Shown here: one piece after another, positions 4,565 through 16,528 of the stretch
Layout of the letters: each line of letters starts with the position of its first letter
Position numbering within the stretch: position 1 is the first letter of the stretch
DNA from: Chloroflexi bacterium OHK40
GTDB taxonomy: Bacteria; Chloroflexota; Chloroflexia; Chloroflexales; Chloroflexaceae
DNA length: 64,000 nt
Reading direction: 5' to 3'
Assembly: GCA_004367505.1 (NCBI GenBank)
Contig: SFCB01000116.1
Location: forward strand, 1 to 64,000
Position numbers and translations under genes: made by a program
Notes under the pieces: model-generated
What the model was told of the DNA's origin: nothing
Databases searched by the model: none
Seen by the model: only the letters and a program-made list of their open reading frames with translations

Positions 4565-5161
4565 CTAGAGGAGCCCCACCCCGAGGAAGACCACCGTCGC
4601 CATGCGCACCAGGCGCCCGAGAAACGTGCTGCTGATGTAGATCCACAGCGGAATGCCGAGCGCCCCGGCGAGCAGCCCTGCCACATCGAAGAAGGGGTTG
4701 GGCGGCGCCGAGAGGCTAAAGAGCACCAGTGGCGCCCGCCAAGGGTGGCTCAACTGGGCCTGTACCCAGAGGTAGAAGCGGGTTTGCTCCACCGCCTGGC
4801 GCCCGGAGCGGCCCACGGAGTAGGCTACCAGTTCACCGATCACCGAGCCCGCCGCCGCCGCGAACACCACACCCCACGGGTCGAAGGCCTGCCCAAGACG
4901 AATGAGCAGCGGGTAGTAAGGCACTGGTACGAGGACGGTGGCGTTGGCGAAGGCCGCAGACGCGAAGGCGCCCAGATAGCCAACGTTTCCCAGGCGTTCG
5001 AGCAGACCAGGCGGCAGCAGCAGGAAGACGGCGATATTCGCTGCGGCTACGGCGAGGCCGAGCAGCAACGGGCGAAGCCAGAGGCGCCAGGCGGGTGGCT
5101 GTGGCACTTCGGCAGGGGGCGAGGCGGCGTCACGCGGGGCAACGCGCTGCTCGTCCAGCAT
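4565..5161 (-). CDS. VTT/DedA (SNARE-associated) family membrane protein
   Basis: A protein of 198 residues with four or five hydrophobic segments, beginning with WLRPLLLGLAVAAANIAVFLLL near residue 27. The family-typical core lies around AAAAGSVIGELVAYSVGRSGR, and NPFFDVAGLLAGALGIPLW matches the second conserved block of the VTT domain. Family members act at the membrane in lipid scrambling or export, and some affect osmotic or pH stress. The specific role here is unknown. It precedes the epimerase on the same strand and may share a transcript with it. Confidence 0.75.
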   Translation of the reverse strand: MLDEQRVAPRDAASPPAEVPQPPAWRLWLRPLLLGLAVAAANIAVFLLLPPGLLERLGNVGYLGAFASAAFANATVLVPVPYYPLLIRLGQAFDPWGVVFAAAAGSVIGELVAYSVGRSGRQAVEQTRFYLWVQAQLSHPWRAPLVLFSLSAPPNPFFDVAGLLAGALGIPLWIYISSTFLGRLVRMATVVFLGVGLL

Positions 5162-5235: not shown

Positions 5236-7254
5236 TTAGCCGCCGATGAGGCGCCGCAACCGCTGCCACCAGCGCTCGGGCGTAATTTGCAGCGGCAGCA
5301 CGAGCTGCAGAGCCAGCGCGCCAGCTACCAACTCCAGGGCCACTGGCTGGACGCCACGCAGCTGGTGGGGCGGGTGGAGCCGCACGGAGAGATGGCCGGT
5401 GGCGCCCGGCCCGAGCGCGGCGGGCGCCGCCGCAATCCGGGCCCATGCTGTCAGGCTGCGGCAGGTAAGGGGGGTCAGGGCGCTGCCGCGATTGCTGAGC
5501 TCGATCGTGGCATAGGAGGGCTCGCCGGCGGTGAGCGGGTGGGCCGTGGCCCGCTCCAGACCAGTGATGCTCAGGATAGGGAAACGATCGGGGGCGAGAT
5601 CGTGGAGCACCCGGCTCACCAGCAGGCGGCGCGCGAGTTCATCAGGCCGCTGGGCGAGGGCGGCATCGAGCTCGGCGGCGAGGGGCCGGCGGCCCGTGGC
5701 GCGCAGCCAGCGGCTCAGGGCACCCTGGATCAGCAGGGCCTCCAGCGCCGGCACCAGCTCTGGCCGGCTAAGATCCAGATCTTCCAGGCGGGCGATATGG
5801 CGGTTGCCCACCGGCACACCGGCGCGGGCCGTGCCCTCCCAGGGGATGGCCCAGGTGTGGGCCCCGCAGCGCAGCTGCACGGTGCCGCGCCGGGGTCCGG
5901 CGGTGGCCATCGCGACAAGCTCCAGCCGAACGCGATCCCCGGCGGCAACGACACCGGCCGCCCGGCGCTGCGGCTTCCCGCCAGTGAGCACGCGCACATC
6001 GGCGTCAGGCTGGGACGGACAGCTCAACTCCCAGCGCAGCGGTGTGAAGGTGCCGTTGTACAGAGTGAGCGTGGCGGGCCGGCTCCAGACGCGCCAACCA
6101 CGCAGCGGCAGCTCACCGAAGTCGAGCCGGTCTGGCGTGAACTGAAGCAGGCGGCTACCCTCGGCGGGAGCCATGGCGTGCAGGAGCGTCTCCAGGGGCT
6201 GCTGGCGGGCGGGGGCTGCCCGGGCTGCGGCCCGCAGGCTATAGCGCAGGGCGCCGAGGGAAGCGTCGGGATGAGTAGCGAGCCAGCGCTCCAGGGCGCC
6301 ATTGGCCACCGCCGGCTCAATCAGGCGCGGGCTACGCTGGATGATGGCCCGCAGATCGCGCCCATCGGCGAGCGCCACGCCGCCGCCGAGGAAGAGCGGC
6401 TGGGCCGGAGCAGGCGCGCCAAGCTGGGAACGCAGGGCAGCGGCGGTCGGACAGCGCCGAGCCAGGTCGAGCGAGAGCGCCGAGCGCAGCGCGGGCGCCA
6501 GAGCTGGCGCCACCCGGTCGAGGCGTTCGAGGTCGAACTGCAGCGGCGCCAGGGTCGCATCCTGGCCGGTGAGCAACTCATAGCAGATCACAGCGAGAGC
6601 AAAGACATCGGCGCGCTCGTCGTGGCCCCAGGCCCCGAGTTGCTCCGGCGGAGCGTAGCCGGGCGTCCCGTGGCGCGGCCGGGGCTTGCGCGGCGGGCGC
6701 CGGGTGAGGCTCTGGGCCGCACCGAGATCCACGAGCGCCAGCGTCAGATCGGGGCGAACGATGACGTTGGCGGGCTTGAGATCGCTGGCGACGATCGGGG
6801 TGTCGCGGGTGTGCAGGTAGGTGAGCAGATCGCAGAGCTGCACGGCCCATGCACGGACGCGCCGCGCGTCCTGGGGGGCCTGGCGGGCGAGGGCGAGGAG
6901 CGGCTGGCCCGGAATGAGGTCGCGGGCGAGCCAGGTGAGGCGCGGGCCGCTCTCGAGCCGGTAGAGGCGCGGCAGGGCCGGATGGCGCAGGCGCCGGAGC
7001 AGGCCGCCTTCCCAGCGCAGCACAGCCTCAGCCTCGGCCCGGGCGGCGGCCCCCTGGTCGCGCCGGGCCACCTTCACCGCCACCGGCACCCCACCACGGG
7101 CCACGTCGGCGGCCTGGAAGACGACGGCCTGCCCACCGTGGCCGACAATCTGGCCCAGGCGAAAGCGCCCGCCAAGCGTATCGCCGGGGGCGGCCCCACA
7201 ATCCGGGCCTGAAGGGCGCGCGCTGAGCCGGACCGTCTGCCCTACATTCGCCAT
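5236..7254 (-). CDS. Ser/Thr protein kinase with C-terminal Ig-like (ASH-type) region
   Basis: A protein of 672 residues from the chosen ATG (MANVGQTVRL). An in-frame ATG 22 codons upstream is possible, and neither has a strong ribosome site. The kinase domain is about residues 31-300: glycine loop IVGHGGQAVVF, Lys61 in VAVKVA, catalytic Asp158 in SDLKPANVIV, DLG in place of DFG, and GTPGYAPPEQLG. The usual HRD is VASD, so this is a non-RD kinase. After the kinase comes a region with at least one Ig-like domain (LDFGELPLRGW..TLTLYNG, about 400-500) of the ASH/hydin kind. No membrane segment is obvious. It lies 87 bases after the PP2C phosphatase gene and probably belongs to the same operon. 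Confidence 0.85.
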   Translation of the reverse strand: MANVGQTVRLSARPSGPDCGAAPGDTLGGRFRLGQIVGHGGQAVVFQAADVARGGVPVAVKVARRDQGAAARAEAEAVLRWEGGLLRRLRHPALPRLYRLESGPRLTWLARDLIPGQPLLALARQAPQDARRVRAWAVQLCDLLTYLHTRDTPIVASDLKPANVIVRPDLTLALVDLGAAQSLTRRPPRKPRPRHGTPGYAPPEQLGAWGHDERADVFALAVICYELLTGQDATLAPLQFDLERLDRVAPALAPALRSALSLDLARRCPTAAALRSQLGAPAPAQPLFLGGGVALADGRDLRAIIQRSPRLIEPAVANGALERWLATHPDASLGALRYSLRAAARAAPARQQPLETLLHAMAPAEGSRLLQFTPDRLDFGELPLRGWRVWSRPATLTLYNGTFTPLRWELSCPSQPDADVRVLTGGKPQRRAAGVVAAGDRVRLELVAMATAGPRRGTVQLRCGAHTWAIPWEGTARAGVPVGNRHIARLEDLDLSRPELVPALEALLIQGALSRWLRATGRRPLAAELDAALAQRPDELARRLLVSRVLHDLAPDRFPILSITGLERATAHPLTAGEPSYATIELSNRGSALTPLTCRSLTAWARIAAAPAALGPGATGHLSVRLHPPHQLRGVQPVALELVAGALALQLVLPLQITPERWWQRLRRLIGG

Positions 7255-7341
7255 GGACGTTGCCTGCGCTGATCGCTCGCTTGCACGAACGATTGTGCCA
7301 CAGGCGGGGCGCTCGCGCAAGGCGCGGCGCAGGGCCGTCCA

Positions 7342-9786
7342 TCACACCGGCCAGCCCGCCGTGATCCGCACGGCGAGGATCGCGATATCATCTTGCTGGG
7401 GCGCGCCTGCCATCCAGGTGCCAACCGCGTCCATCAACCGTTCGACGACCTCGTGGGCCGGCGCATCGCCGATCGCGGCCGCCGTCGCCTCCAGGCGCTC
7501 GAAGCCGAAGAGCTCGCCCGCCGGGCTGAAGGCCTCGATCACACCGTCGGTGTAGAAGAGCAGCAGATCGCCCTCATACAGCCGGACGGTGAGCGCCTCG
7601 TAGGCCGGCGCGGGTACCACGCCGAGGGGCAGGTGGTCACCGGGGCCCTCCAGCAGCTGGCCCTGGCCGTGGCGCAGCAGCAGCGGGGCGGGCTGGGCCG
7701 CGTTCACCAGGGCACAGGTACCGGCGGTGCGATCAAGACGGGCGAAGGTACTGGCCACGAAGCTCCCCCGGGGCATGTCGGTCACGAGCACGGCGTTAGC
7801 GCGCCGCAGGGTCTCCACGGGGCCATGATCACCGTCATTGGCCGCAGCATAGAGCGTCGTACGGGCCATTGTCATCAGCAGGGCTGCCGGCAGGCTCTTG
7901 CCCGACACATCGCCGATAAAGAGGTCCACCACATCGCGCCCGGCACTGCGGGCGCCCTGATTGGGCGTCACAAAGGAGTAGAAGTCGCCGGTCGTCTCGC
8001 GGGCGGGCCGGTAGAAGGTGGCGATGTCGAGGCCGGAGAGGGTCGGAGCGCGCTCGGGGAAGAGGTGCTTCTGGATCTGCCGGGCCGTCTGCAACTCCTG
8101 CTCCACCCGGCGCACCGCCTCTTCGTAGAGGCGGGCGTGGGCGATAGCAATCGCCACCTGGCCGCCAAGAGCCGCGAGGAGCGTCGCCTGTTCCTCGCCA
8201 TAGGCGCCCACCCGGCCGGCGTACACCGACAGGGTGCCAATCACGTGTTCCTTTGCCACCAGGGGCACCCCGAGCCATGCGCCACGGCCCGGGTCGGCGC
8301 CGAAGCTCTGCCGCCACGCCTCGTCCAGCGCGGTGTCGTCCACAATCCGGGGCCGCCGGTTGAGGGCCACATCGGCGAGCACGCCCCCGCTCAGCACCAC
8401 CCGGCGCGGCAGATTGGCCGCGCCCTGTCCAGCGGCGGCCACCGTCTCCAGGCAGGCACGCGAGGAGTCGAGCAGGCGGATGGTCGCGGCATCGTACTCG
8501 ACGAGACGCCCGATCTGATCGAGGACAGTTTGCAATACCGCTCGCTCCTCGAGCGTGCCGCTGCTGAGCCGCGCAACTTCAAGCACGGTGTGCAGCTGGG
8601 CCGTGCGCTCAGCCACGCGCTGCTCGAGCTCCTCGTTCCAGGCCCGTAGCTCGCGCTGGGCCGTGCGCAGGCGCTCAAACATCTGCTGGAAGCTGGCCGA
8701 GAGGGTGGCGAGCTCGGCGCTTGGGTATTCACCGGGCTCGTGCAATGCCGGGGACGCCTGCAGGTCGCCACTGGCCGCCACCCGGGCTGCGGCCGCACTC
8801 AGGCGCCGGACGGGACGCAACGCCCGGTCGATCTCGCTTGAGAGCAGGAGAGCCAGGCTTACGGCGCTGAGCAGGGTGGCGAGGGAGGCAGCCAGCCCGA
8901 TCGAGCGCACCAGCCGGAGCGCCGCATCGCTCTCCTGTTCCACGATTACGCCCCAGCCCAGCGGCGCCCCCACCGGGGCATAGGCCGCAAGGTAGGCGAC
9001 CCCCTCGCGGGTGTAGCGCGTCGCGCCTTCGAAGCCGGCGAACACCGGCGCAATGGCGGCCTGGTCGATCCGCGTCGCTACAAGGCGGCGGTCCGGATGG
9101 GCAAGCACCAGCCCTGTCTCGTCGACGATCGTCACGGCACCCTCGGCGATGCGAAAGCCATCAACCCTGGTCCAGAAGGAGCGGAGGTCGATCTGGGCCA
9201 CCAGAGCCCCGGAGGGATCGCATGGGCTCTCCTCGCCGCAGCGGATGAGCGGCAGGGTCGCGGTGACGTAGGGGGTACCGGTGATCGGGCGAAAGGCCAC
9301 CGGTGAGATCCGCAAGGTCCGGTCGGCGAGCACCTGGACGACCGCGCCATCGGGTGTACCGGGGGTCTCGGGGCGCCGGGCTCCCTCAGCCAGGGCGGCC
9401 ATCAGCGGGCCAGCCACCTGGAGGATCTCGCGACCGGCACCGTCGTAGAGACGCAGGTCGTTGAAGGTGTAGGGAAACCGGGCACGCAGGCGGAGGAGCA
9501 CCTGGCCCTGCTCATCCGGGCTGGCGCTGGCGATCAGCAGATCGCCCTGGAGGCGCAGGGTATCGAGCTGTGTCTGGAAGAAGGTGGCCACCTCGCCGCT
9601 TACCTGCACTGCCAGCTGGCGATTGCGCGCGTCCACCTGGTCGGTCACGGCGCGCTGGCCGAGGCGAAAGGCGACGAAGCCGAGGGCCGCCACAAAGAGT
9701 AGCGTCACCGCGATCACCGGGGTGGCGATCCGGCGGGTGAGGCGCTCGCGGCGCCAGGCATTGAGGCGCGCGAAGGCCCGCCTCAC
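7342..9786 (-). CDS. Membrane Cache-HAMP-GAF-SpoIIE/PP2C phosphatase
   Basis: A protein of 814 residues. A transmembrane segment at about 20-42 is followed by an extracytoplasmic Cache-like sensor (about 45-285), a second membrane segment (LAASLATLLSAVSLALLL), a HAMP linker, a short coiled coil, a GAF domain (about 400-545) and a C-terminal SpoIIE/RsbU-type PP2C domain with the metal-binding Asp motifs (IGDVSGKSLPAALLM and LLLFYTDGVIEAF). Such proteins dephosphorylate anti-sigma antagonists or similar partners in response to external ligands. The GTG start overlaps the stop of the binding-protein gene in a GTGA, so the two are translationally coupled. The kinase downstream is a natural counter-enzyme. 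Confidence 0.9.
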   Translation of the reverse strand: MRRAFARLNAWRRERLTRRIATPVIAVTLLFVAALGFVAFRLGQRAVTDQVDARNRQLAVQVSGEVATFFQTQLDTLRLQGDLLIASASPDEQGQVLLRLRARFPYTFNDLRLYDGAGREILQVAGPLMAALAEGARRPETPGTPDGAVVQVLADRTLRISPVAFRPITGTPYVTATLPLIRCGEESPCDPSGALVAQIDLRSFWTRVDGFRIAEGAVTIVDETGLVLAHPDRRLVATRIDQAAIAPVFAGFEGATRYTREGVAYLAAYAPVGAPLGWGVIVEQESDAALRLVRSIGLAASLATLLSAVSLALLLSSEIDRALRPVRRLSAAAARVAASGDLQASPALHEPGEYPSAELATLSASFQQMFERLRTAQRELRAWNEELEQRVAERTAQLHTVLEVARLSSGTLEERAVLQTVLDQIGRLVEYDAATIRLLDSSRACLETVAAAGQGAANLPRRVVLSGGVLADVALNRRPRIVDDTALDEAWRQSFGADPGRGAWLGVPLVAKEHVIGTLSVYAGRVGAYGEEQATLLAALGGQVAIAIAHARLYEEAVRRVEQELQTARQIQKHLFPERAPTLSGLDIATFYRPARETTGDFYSFVTPNQGARSAGRDVVDLFIGDVSGKSLPAALLMTMARTTLYAAANDGDHGPVETLRRANAVLVTDMPRGSFVASTFARLDRTAGTCALVNAAQPAPLLLRHGQGQLLEGPGDHLPLGVVPAPAYEALTVRLYEGDLLLFYTDGVIEAFSPAGELFGFERLEATAAAIGDAPAHEVVERLMDAVGTWMAGAPQQDDIAILAVRITAGWPV

Positions 9787-10850
9787 GGGGTATACTCCGT
9801 CAACGGGATGCGCCTGGCGACAAGCGCGTCGCGGATCTCGCCCAGACGGGCGCGAACGGCGAGGGGCACGAGCTCCACCAGGCGTCCATTGTGCATCACG
9901 CCGTCGAGCGGTGCGAGGCCCACGCCGCCGGTGAAGAGATCGAGCTGGCGCTGGCCGGGCTGGAGCGTGCCCCGCACCGCCTCGCGCACCAGGCCCAGCA
10001 CGGCCGTATCCATGTTCTTGGTGCGGCTCGTAACAACGGCCTCGGGCGCGAGCCAGCGCTGGTCGGTGCCGGTGGTGATCACGAGGCGCCCGGTCGAGCG
10101 GGCGGCCTCGATCGCGCCCAGGGCGCTGCCGCCAGCGGGCGTATACACGACCGCCGCGCCCTGAGCGAAGAGCGCCTCGGTCAGTTCCCGCCCCCGGTCG
10201 GGCTGAGCGAAGCCACTAAAGTCGCCGGGCCCGGAGATGTACTGGCTGAGGATGCGGGCGTCAGGGCGCACGTAGAGCACGCCCTGGCGCCAGCCGTGCT
10301 CGATCCGGCGGATCACCGGCACGTCGGCGCCGCCGAGGAAGCCGACCACCCCATCGGGGCTGAGCAGTGCCGTCAGCGCGCCCGCCAGAAAGTCGCCTTC
10401 GAGCTCGCGAAAGACGAGCGAGGTAACGTTGGGCGCATCTACTCTGGCATCGACGATCGCGAAGGCCTGGCCGGGATACTCGGCGGCCACGGCGGCCACG
10501 GCCGGCGCGTTGTCGCCGCCGATGGCGATCACCAGGTCTGGCCGCTCCTGGGCCAGCGCGCGCAGCGTATCGGCCTGGAGCCCCCGGCCCCGAAATGGGG
10601 TCACCCGAAAGCGCACCCCGAGCTCACGCTGGGCCTGCTGGAGCCCGGCGTAGGCGCTGTCATTAAAGGCGCGATCGCCGATATCGCCCGTCGCGAGAGC
10701 CAGCCCCACCGTGACGATCGGGCGGGGCGGGTCCGCCGTGGGCTGGCCACCGAACGCACCGATAGTGACCACCAGCGCCAGCCCCAGCAGGGTAGCGACG
10801 GCAGCCAGGGGACGGCGTGCGCCCGGGGTAGACGGGACGAGCTGCGCCAT
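9783..10850 (-). CDS. BMP/PnrA-type substrate-binding protein without its ABC partners
   Basis: A protein of 355 residues from ATG 10850. An N-terminal hydrophobic stretch (PLAAVATLLGLALVVTIGAF) acts as signal or anchor. It carries no lipobox cysteine, unlike most family members. The mature part matches the Bmp/PnrA family: VGLALATGDIGDRAFNDSAYAGL, VIAIGGDNAPAV, VSFLGG-like GVVGFLGG, GWRQGVLYV. Family members bind nucleosides and usually feed an ABC importer, but no permease or ATPase gene is adjacent. Instead it overlaps by 4 bases with a membrane phosphatase that has its own extracellular sensor. This suggests a role as ligand-capturing co-sensor, which is inference. Confidence 0.85.
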   Translation of the reverse strand: MAQLVPSTPGARRPLAAVATLLGLALVVTIGAFGGQPTADPPRPIVTVGLALATGDIGDRAFNDSAYAGLQQAQRELGVRFRVTPFRGRGLQADTLRALAQERPDLVIAIGGDNAPAVAAVAAEYPGQAFAIVDARVDAPNVTSLVFRELEGDFLAGALTALLSPDGVVGFLGGADVPVIRRIEHGWRQGVLYVRPDARILSQYISGPGDFSGFAQPDRGRELTEALFAQGAAVVYTPAGGSALGAIEAARSTGRLVITTGTDQRWLAPEAVVTSRTKNMDTAVLGLVREAVRGTLQPGQRQLDLFTGGVGLAPLDGVMHNGRLVELVPLAVRARLGEIRDALVARRIPLTEYTP

Positions 10851-10976
10851 GGCGACGAGACCTGTGGTAGAGCGGGGGCGCGGCCCGTTGGAGTCGCGCA
10901 ATGCGTATCTTACCACAGGGCAGGGCCTGGCGGCACACGTCGCCGGCACCCACGGGCGGGCCGGGCGTGCGAGAGG

Positions 10977-14565: not shown

Positions 14566-16128
14566 CTAGCGCATCTCCACGCCCAGCAGGCCGAGCAGCA
14601 CCTTGTAGGGGTCGGGGTTCTCGGGGTGCCACTCGAAGCGGGCCCGCTCGAACCATTGCACGGTGTACGGCCGCCCCTGGATTATCTCCGTCTGCGGCTC
14701 GCTCAGTGGGAGCCCGAAGAGCGCCAGACTCTCCGCAAGGCTATACCCGGCGCGTCCATCAAACTCCAGGCCTTTCCCGCGAAAGTAGCTCAGGAAGGGC
14801 TCGCAGAGGCTGTGGCCCGTCTCGCTGAAGTAGAGACACCCTGCGGGCGCGCCGCCTACCGTCCCGAAACTCCGCCAGTCACGCCCCTGTCGTCGTAGCA
14901 CCTCATCGCCCAGACGGCCCAGCAATACATCGTAGGGGCGACCATTCTCGGGGTGGAGTTCGAGCCGGTTGCGCTCAAACTCCTGGGCCTGGAAGGGCCG
15001 GCCCTCGATCATGACCTCCTGCTGGGGGCCGATCGGGTAGCCGAACACCGGAAGGCCCCCGTTCTCGCGCCAGTAGGAGAGCAGGCGCCCACACACCTGG
15101 TGGCCCGTCTCGGGGAAGAACTGGCAATCCCCGGGCGCCACGGGCTGGGGCGCCGGCCGGCCCACCTCGGCGCGGAAGCGATCGCTCAACTCGCGGGTCA
15201 GCCGCAGGTAGAGATCGCCGTAACGCTCACTCGGCTCGATATGGCTGCCCTCGTAGAACTCATTAAAGCTGGTGAGAACAACAGCCTGGGCATTCCGCTC
15301 GATCGCCGTCTGCCAGGTGCCCCGATAGTAGTTGCCGCCTTCCCGATCGCGAGCGTGGCCACCCCGGATCTTCAGATCGTCGTAGCCGGGCATCACCGTG
15401 GCCACAAAGGGGCGGCTCTGGCCGTTGGCCTGGTTGAACTGCTCCAGCCGGCGGGCGTAGGAGGCCATGGCGGCGCCGGGGCGCGCCTCCCAACTGATGT
15501 CGAAATAGTAGAGCGCATCGTAGACGTTCAGGTAGCCGAAGTTGTCGGTGCCACCAAACCAGAACTGCTCACGTCCCGGGTCGGCCCGCTCACGCAGCTG
15601 CGACCAGGCATCCACGCCGCCGAGCGAGGGAGGGTTGAACCAGAAGACGACGGGGCGGCCCTGGTAGCGCAGGTAGTTCGGCTGGCCGAAGAAGTCGCGC
15701 TTGAGCACGTCCAGCGCGCGGGCCAGGCCATCGATGCTCTTGAGCGGCCCCCAGGCCGACTGGTCGGGGATGATCGCCACCTGCAGATCCCGGCCGCCCT
15801 CGCGGGCCAACTCGATCAGGCGGCGGCAGCGCGCGTTGAGGCGCTCCTCATCCGGGCCGTACCAGGTGCAGATCAGCGCGTCGATCCCGGCATCATCGGC
15901 CTGCTGCACGTGCCGGCGGAGCACCGATTCGTCGCCGCCGGAGTAGCGGGGCGCCGGCAGATCGCTCATGCGATCGTAGCTCCAGTCGGAGTTCTCCCAC
16001 CATGGGTAGTAGAAGGCCATGATTGGCCGATCCGATACCGCACGGGCCGGCGCGGGTGTCAGCGCCAGCGCGCTCATTACCACGGCAAGCAGCGCTCCAA
16101 GGTAGCCAGGACGGGCAAGCGACGGCAT
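14566..16128 (-). CDS. Secreted GH99-like glycoside hydrolase with two ETGH repeats
   Basis: A protein of 520 residues. ATG 16128 follows AAAGGAGCTC, and the frame upstream lacks signal. The signal peptide is residues 1-31 (LGALLAVVMSALALTPAPARA). The TIM-barrel catalytic region (about 35-330) matches the GH99/GH71-like family: PIMAFYYPWWENSDWSYD at its start, ALICTWYGPDEERL, LTSFNEFYEGSHIEPS near its end. Family members are endo-acting alpha-mannosidases or related enzymes, and the specificity here is unknown. The C-terminal 190 residues hold two copies of a domain with FPETGHQVCGRLLSYWRENGG / YFSETGHSLCEPFLSYFRGKG and FERNRLELHPEN / FERARFEWHPEN. I know this repeat from secreted Chloroflexota proteins, where its function is undefined. 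Confidence 0.8.
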   Translation of the reverse strand: MPSLARPGYLGALLAVVMSALALTPAPARAVSDRPIMAFYYPWWENSDWSYDRMSDLPAPRYSGGDESVLRRHVQQADDAGIDALICTWYGPDEERLNARCRRLIELAREGGRDLQVAIIPDQSAWGPLKSIDGLARALDVLKRDFFGQPNYLRYQGRPVVFWFNPPSLGGVDAWSQLRERADPGREQFWFGGTDNFGYLNVYDALYYFDISWEARPGAAMASYARRLEQFNQANGQSRPFVATVMPGYDDLKIRGGHARDREGGNYYRGTWQTAIERNAQAVVLTSFNEFYEGSHIEPSERYGDLYLRLTRELSDRFRAEVGRPAPQPVAPGDCQFFPETGHQVCGRLLSYWRENGGLPVFGYPIGPQQEVMIEGRPFQAQEFERNRLELHPENGRPYDVLLGRLGDEVLRRQGRDWRSFGTVGGAPAGCLYFSETGHSLCEPFLSYFRGKGLEFDGRAGYSLAESLALFGLPLSEPQTEIIQGRPYTVQWFERARFEWHPENPDPYKVLLGLLGVEMR

Positions 16129-16528
16129 GTGAGCTCCTTTGAGCAGGGACGCCACGCGCTCCGTCCAGACGAGCTCCTGCAGGGAGACCGCGCGGTGTCC
16201 AGGCGAAGGTTGCCGGGCGATCCCGGCGAAGTCCGTGTCATTGTATCAGGGAGGGGGGGCTGCGTGCCGTACCCACCCGGCGTGCTGCCATTCGCCCATA
16301 CCCCCGGCACGCGGATCGGCATCAAGACGGATGTTGGACAAGTCAAGAAGATGGTACACTGGGACGGGGTTGCCTGGCCTGGTCGGGTGGCCCTTCTGTG
16401 TGGCATTATGGGCGGGCAGCGTAGTCCGGTATCGCAGGGGCAGCCGTGGCGCGCCGCGCAGCGCCGTCACCCCGCCGCGATCGATGATTGGCCGCGGCCG
16501 CGCCCGCCTCAGGAAGTGCGAACCCTGT
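16129..16528. other. Divergent intergenic region
   Basis: No gene is seen here. TTGGAC (16334-16339) and TACACT (16355-16360) could form a promoter for the MFS gene, but the 15-base spacer is short. A TACAAT on the minus strand (16245-16240) could serve the GH99-like gene, without a recognisable -35. Confidence 0.45.

Follow-up and report, generated by a model that had tools for sequence, protein, structure and literature searches.

Receptors that depend on a binding protein are already known for histidine kinases and chemoreceptors. LuxQ recognises AI-2 through LuxP, and in HptA-HptS a double-PDC histidine kinase forms a complex with a binding protein (PMC8534201). A first, sequence-only reading of the locus described here spoke of a possibly undescribed signalling system. 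This was too strong, as LuxPQ and HptSA already show the principle of a binding protein joined to a dCache/double-PDC receptor (PMC8534201). The locus lies in the window, the whole 64 kb stretch of DNA that was analysed. By analogy with LuxP-LuxQ and HptA-HptS, its BMP/PnrA-type protein has probably been recruited as an extracytoplasmic receptor subunit that feeds a PP2C phosphatase. With good confidence, the BMP can be taken to bind the ligand within a membrane receptor made of two proteins, signalling via the dCache-HAMP part of its partner to a cytoplasmic output.

The gene pair at the locus

The unit at the locus comprises two genes, encoding the BMP and the phosphatase, not three (Table 1). 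The sequence-only reading had described a BMP/PnrA-type protein without a lipobox and without adjoining ABC genes, overlapping by 4 bases with a Cache-HAMP-GAF-SpoIIE phosphatase. All of this holds: no Cys is present within the first 60 residues of the BMP, ABC genes of the BMP-accompanying kind are absent from the 64 kb window, the overlap is GTGA, and all four phosphatase domains score above their cut-offs. The overlap is a predicted translational coupling of both genes. The linkage of BMP and phosphatase is beyond chance, because the pair recurs in other genera.

Table 1. Positions of genes in the window and of domains in the phosphatase, with the reference residues of BmpA.
Feature	Position	Numbering	Strand	Details
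BMP/PnrA-type binding protein	9783..10850	window	minus	ATG start, 355 aa
Membrane receptor-phosphatase	7342..9786	window	minus	GTG start, 814 aa
GTGA overlap	9783..9786	window	minus	4 bases; BMP stop TGA and phosphatase start GTG
Non-RD Ser/Thr-type protein kinase	5236..7254	window	minus	672 aa; judged outside the module
VTT (DedA-type) membrane protein	4565..5161	window	minus	downstream of the kinase; outside the module
TM helix	about 19-44	phosphatase residues		hydrophobic segment
Extracytoplasmic dCache	about 45-290	phosphatase residues
TM helix	about 295-319	phosphatase residues		hydrophobic segment
HAMP	321-375	phosphatase residues
GAF	412-549	phosphatase residues
SpoIIE/PP2C	620-808	phosphatase residues
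Nucleoside-coordinating residues used as reference	D19, F27, F151, F176, D225, K242	BmpA residues		basis PMC13325309, PMC7093131

The sensor domain of the phosphatase matches dCache_1 (PF02743) with 48.1 bits against a cut-off of 45, and the output domain matches SpoIIE (PF07228) with 155 bits. The metal-ligand motifs TGDFY, GDVSGK, YTDG and QDDIA are intact. The sensor model matches dCache structures with Z of about 20; LuxQ is not among the structural matches listed, which has no bearing either way. The amino-acid-type ligand motif of dCache domains is probably absent; no Trp occurs in dCache residues 101-204. A point against the receptor reading is that the dCache domain might have a ligand of its own.

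A perfect 9-base inverted repeat, CCTGTGGTA / TACCACAGG, lies just upstream of the BMP start (window 10861-10869 and 10911-10919, 41 bases between the arms) and overlaps a possible -10 box, TAAGAT. It is absent upstream of the BMP orthologues in the related genomes G030 and G013. A sigma-70 promoter scan gave a single weak match, located within the phosphatase gene, and none at gene starts. A glycosyl hydrolase family 99-like gene (window 14566-16155) precedes the BMP gene by 3.7 kb on the same strand. In G030, a gene whose start is very similar (L039 7560-9167) precedes the BMP gene by about 180 bases.

Recurrence of the pair and its outputs

Pairs of BMP and dCache genes were found in 11 genomes, the window included, from six genera (g1, g12, g14, g15, g25 and g62). 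The two genes overlap or are at most 5 bases apart: 10 of the 11 pairs share 1 or 4 bases or sit 2 bases apart, and the genes of the G044 pair are separated by 5 bases. A SpoIIE phosphatase is the output in four Chloroflexia genera. Among the pairs from the family of the window genome (G030, G024, G013, G014 and G025), this output is present in all but G024, whose contig ends in the GAF region of the phosphatase gene, with the output domain not visible. The partner in G044 (Herpetosiphonaceae) is a dCache-HAMP-STAS protein (PF01740, 41 bits). In one genus with pairs (g62; G286, G299, G096 and G229), the two partners scanned end in HisKA_3 plus HATPase, and a NarL-type response regulator comes next. 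G286 also carries a reductive dehalogenase. Three output types are thereby found on homologous dCache-HAMP halves. Other neighbours of the pairs mostly differ between genomes. A BMP and a dCache-HAMP protein with exchangeable output look like a swappable sensing module.

The class was sampled with 158 genomes and a sensor profile at a threshold of 1e-30. Twelve of the 158 genomes match, 7 of them as pairs (window included), so the unit is uncommon and patchy. Four matches, all from family f8, lack a neighbouring BMP; the two of these that were scanned have histidine-kinase outputs. The match in G017 is preceded by ABC_sub_bind proteins.

Other binding-protein families lie before dCache-HAMP proteins in Chloroflexota (L186, L187, L182, L185 and L179), in one case three in a row. 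A Peripla_BP_6 protein is encoded directly before a dCache-HAMP protein with HisKA_2 kinase in G012, one base being shared, and directly before a dCache-HAMP-GAF protein in G330. ABC_sub_bind directly precedes a dCache-HAMP protein with kinase and regulator in G387. A binding-protein-like frame, possibly frameshifted, precedes a dCache-HAMP-STAS protein in G051. Binding proteins seem to have been recruited to dCache receptors more than once, because Peripla_BP_6 and ABC_sub_bind also precede dCache-HAMP proteins in the phylum.

Clade, anchor and pocket of the binding protein

The window BMP matches PF02608 (Bmp) in Pfam with 154 bits against a cut-off of 24.1 (E=5e-45). The nearest solved structures to its AlphaFold model (pLDDT 89) are of the PnrA type and include guanosine-, adenosine- and inosine-bound members; the AlphaFold input alignments were shallow, with 7 and 5 rows from the window and related-locus sequences only. 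A tree of 39 BMP sequences placed the 11 partner-linked BMPs and two orphans in one clade (support 98/93), with the ABC-linked BMPs outside. The earlier idea of a repurposed import protein had been staked on the closest homologues not all sitting with ABC permeases. The opposite of such a setting was found: the closest homologues of the window BMP (50-70% identical) adjoin dCache-HAMP proteins. No ABC importer genes were detected beside any clade BMP examined. A Spirochaetota match (39%) was rejected as a clade relative; it has a lipobox, ordinary pocket Asp residues and no dCache neighbour, and falls outside the clade.

Pairing is not universal within the clade. The two orphans, on contig C139 of G044 and in G292, have no dCache neighbour. 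The G292 orphan (L145 8174-9223) is located amid genes for an adenine deaminase, an amidohydrolase, carbamoyltransferases and a carbamate-kinase-like protein, a neighbourhood that hints at a purine-related ligand.

The window BMP has an N-terminal hydrophobic anchor (AlphaFold helix 12-33), which we infer to be uncleaved. All 6 paired BMPs of the window's family lack the N-terminal cysteine and keep the hydrophobic helix. In the STAS-linked BMP, the kinase-linked BMPs and the two orphans, the signal sequence ends with a cysteine. An altered anchoring mode in the window's lineage fits a protein that needs to stay membrane-bound.

Reference residues for the ligand positions were those of BmpA/PnrA (PMC13325309, PMC7093131). 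The window BMP retains D59, F62, N63, D134, F214 and K278 in the pocket. In place of the two ligand Asp residues it has A53 and G261. These differences extend to the whole clade: in 13 of 13 members, the equivalent of BmpA Asp19 is Ala or Gly, that of Asp225 is Gly or Ser and that of Phe151 is Ile. The equivalents of Phe27, Asn28, Asp24, Asp98, Phe176 and Lys242 are invariant across the 13 members, and an acidic residue (Asp/Glu) at position 77, in the pocket loop, is fixed in all of them. The full nucleoside-coordinating set of the importer subfamily is absent, with only F27, F176 and K242 of the 6 residues kept. ABC-linked BMPs of the same phylum mostly have the standard pocket set; exceptions include G227, G093 and G078b.

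The pocket changes are common by descent and could mark a changed or a lost ligand. On the sequence, they suggest a changed specificity. Change rather than loss is favoured because the stacking Phe, the Asn, the Lys and two Asp are invariant and the acidic residue is fixed. A purine-like ligand of the clade BMPs is a guess based on the fold, the stacking residues that are kept and the genes around the G292 orphan. As a sequence signature, the changes may distinguish signalling BMPs from transport BMPs. Tandem proteins with two BMP domains, about 740-790 aa long, are common in the genome family of the window (L048 8865-10841 in G025; similar places in G014, G029, G033, G036, G009 and G021). The one checked, from G025, has ordinary pocket residues.

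The BMP might still be an importer component that serves a distant permease, with the dCache phosphatase merely co-expressed and sensing its own ligand. Its fold and several pocket residues are of the nucleoside-importer type, dCache domains often bind ligands directly, and a BMP-type ABC permease is encoded on another contig of the genome. That transporter, however, has its own BMP: on contig C50, an ordinary lipobox BMP is followed by an ABC ATPase and two permeases (read by eye), so BMP-type import is served elsewhere in the genome. The window has no such ABC genes, the clade is separate from the ABC-linked BMPs and its members have the pocket losses in common. The coupling to dCache proteins stays tight across six genera while the outputs change. 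Continued service in import is therefore unlikely, and the receptor subunit is the preferred reading of the BMP.

The adjacent kinase, the phosphatase target and known systems

A non-RD kinase had been noted after the phosphatase, and it is indeed encoded there on the same strand, with HRD replaced by ASD. Its ATG start is at 7254; a longer TTG start is possible. The Pkinase domain is recognised with E=2e-25, DFG is DLG, and the ATP-lysine motif and the catalytic Asp are present. Orthologues have VGD, CGD or CND in place of HRD, and DLG throughout. The Ig-like tail ascribed to the kinase was appearance only, since the C-terminal tail has neither a Pfam family match nor a solved-structure match. 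Because 87 bases separate phosphatase and kinase, the kinase is not translationally coupled.

A module of all three genes, with one common target that gains its phosphate from the kinase and loses it through the phosphatase, is quite improbable. The genes are adjacent on one strand in the window, and the kinase occurs in 6 of 6 family genomes with the phosphatase pair versus 12 of 31 others (Fisher p=0.008, relatedness ignored). An indirect link is possible, because all 6 phosphatase-pair genomes carry the kinase. Against a module, the three-gene order was found only in the window genome, and the BMP-phosphatase pair alone recurs. In G030, G013, G014 and G025 the pair's neighbours do not include the kinase, which is encoded on a separate contig; the G024 contig breaks off within the phosphatase gene, before a kinase could follow. 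Kinase orthologues (full-length, split or partial; 43-74% identical) are present in 18 of 37 family genomes, 12 of them without the pair. They have another neighbour: a VTT gene follows the kinase in the window, G011 and G013, that is, in three genera. G044, the STAS-type genome, yields generic kinase-domain matches only. The kinase was rejected as a conserved third member and is probably a bystander of the pair. What stands of the sensing module once proposed is the repurposed import-type protein with a phosphatase, whose homologues pair with dCache-HAMP proteins; the membership of the kinase does not. Kinase and VTT gene are a possible unit of their own (L068, L077), and TlyA is encoded near the kinase in G011 and G016.

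A search for a STAS or anti-sigma target nearby in relatives had been suggested as a check. A STAS connection exists in one relative, G044, where the partner is itself a dCache-HAMP-STAS protein. No STAS or anti-sigma gene was recognised adjoining the phosphatase-type pairs, which makes any target a guess. It is probably encoded at a distance, given the 17 SpoIIE and 23 STAS matches in the window genome. A shared local target was rejected; the genes after the phosphatase differ among relatives and none is conserved. They are a histidine kinase and a NarL-type regulator in G030, an adenylate/guanylate cyclase domain protein in G013 and a convergent DnaK-like gene in G014 and G025. The genes in G030, the closest relative (L039 12943-14281), begin 96 bases past the phosphatase and encode a HisKA_3 kinase without recognised sensor and the NarL-type regulator. 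They are reminiscent of the pairs with kinase output in the genus bearing the reductive dehalogenase.

In the proposed two-protein receptor, the uncleaved N-terminal helix would tether the BMP to the outside of the cytoplasmic membrane, a role that a lipid anchor would fill in relatives whose partner is a STAS protein or a histidine kinase. The cleft would bind a small molecule with altered specificity, probably nucleoside- or nucleobase-like. The BMP is predicted to dock on the dCache domain of its partner. A ligand-driven change between open and closed forms may then be passed on by TM2 and HAMP to the cytoplasmic output. The SpoIIE-type PP2C phosphatase presumably dephosphorylates a STAS-type antagonist encoded elsewhere, which would change an anti-sigma partner switch. 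In related lineages, the same input would act on a STAS domain or on a histidine kinase with response regulator. A ligand-independent structural or inhibitory phosphatase subunit with a decayed pocket could explain the replacement of both ligand Asp and one Phe in 13 of 13 clade members, but is very unlikely with the stacking Phe, Asn, Lys and two other Asp invariant and an acidic residue fixed in the pocket loop.

For the receptor as a family, the chances seem about even that an extracellular purine- or nucleoside-like cue is read by a PnrA-type protein with altered pocket and relayed through dCache-HAMP to interchangeable cytoplasmic outputs, among them a PP2C phosphatase or STAS protein under its direct control. 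If true, a PP2C phosphatase or STAS protein gated by a binding protein would link the sensing of small molecules outside the cell directly to anti-sigma partner switching, a process whose inputs frequently lack a known signal. With its three natural outputs, the single input clade is also a ready set for studying dCache-HAMP signal transmission.

The open-access papers searched for binding proteins with SpoIIE/Cache or in Chloroflexi describe no such BMP-dCache pair. The nucleoside-binding lipoproteins PnrA, TmpC and BmpD of ABC transporters share family and fold with the window BMP. Unlike them, it has no lipobox and no ABC neighbours, both ligand Asp are replaced and the partner is a dCache protein. 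Med (comK activator, 2hqb) is a BMP-fold protein annotated as regulatory, but is only about 21% identical to the window BMP and is not known to have a dCache partner. SiaA of Pseudomonas aeruginosa is a dCache-HAMP-PP2C phosphatase with the same sensor-to-SpoIIE architecture. SiaB and SiaC are located beside it, and it is not known to have a binding-protein partner. The window phosphatase matches the SiaA model NF038263 with 65.1 bits, far below the family cut-off of 700.

HptA-HptS of the monoderm Staphylococcus aureus likewise combines a binding protein with a double-PDC receptor, but the binding protein is of another family, the ligand is glucose-6-phosphate and the output is a kinase only. 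LuxP-LuxQ, the Vibrio autoinducer-2 receptor, also unites a protein of the periplasmic-binding fold with a dCache/double-PDC membrane receptor, and co-encoding of a binding protein with a dCache receptor was found here in 11 pairs from six genera. LuxP is ribose-binding-like, in contrast to the PnrA/BMP family protein of the window. The output of LuxQ is a hybrid kinase. The window partner ends in SpoIIE instead; the outputs of the pairs are a PP2C phosphatase, STAS or a NarL-type kinase, and among the pairs a histidine kinase is confined to the g62 relatives. A BMP-family binding protein combined with phosphatase and STAS outputs appears to be new.
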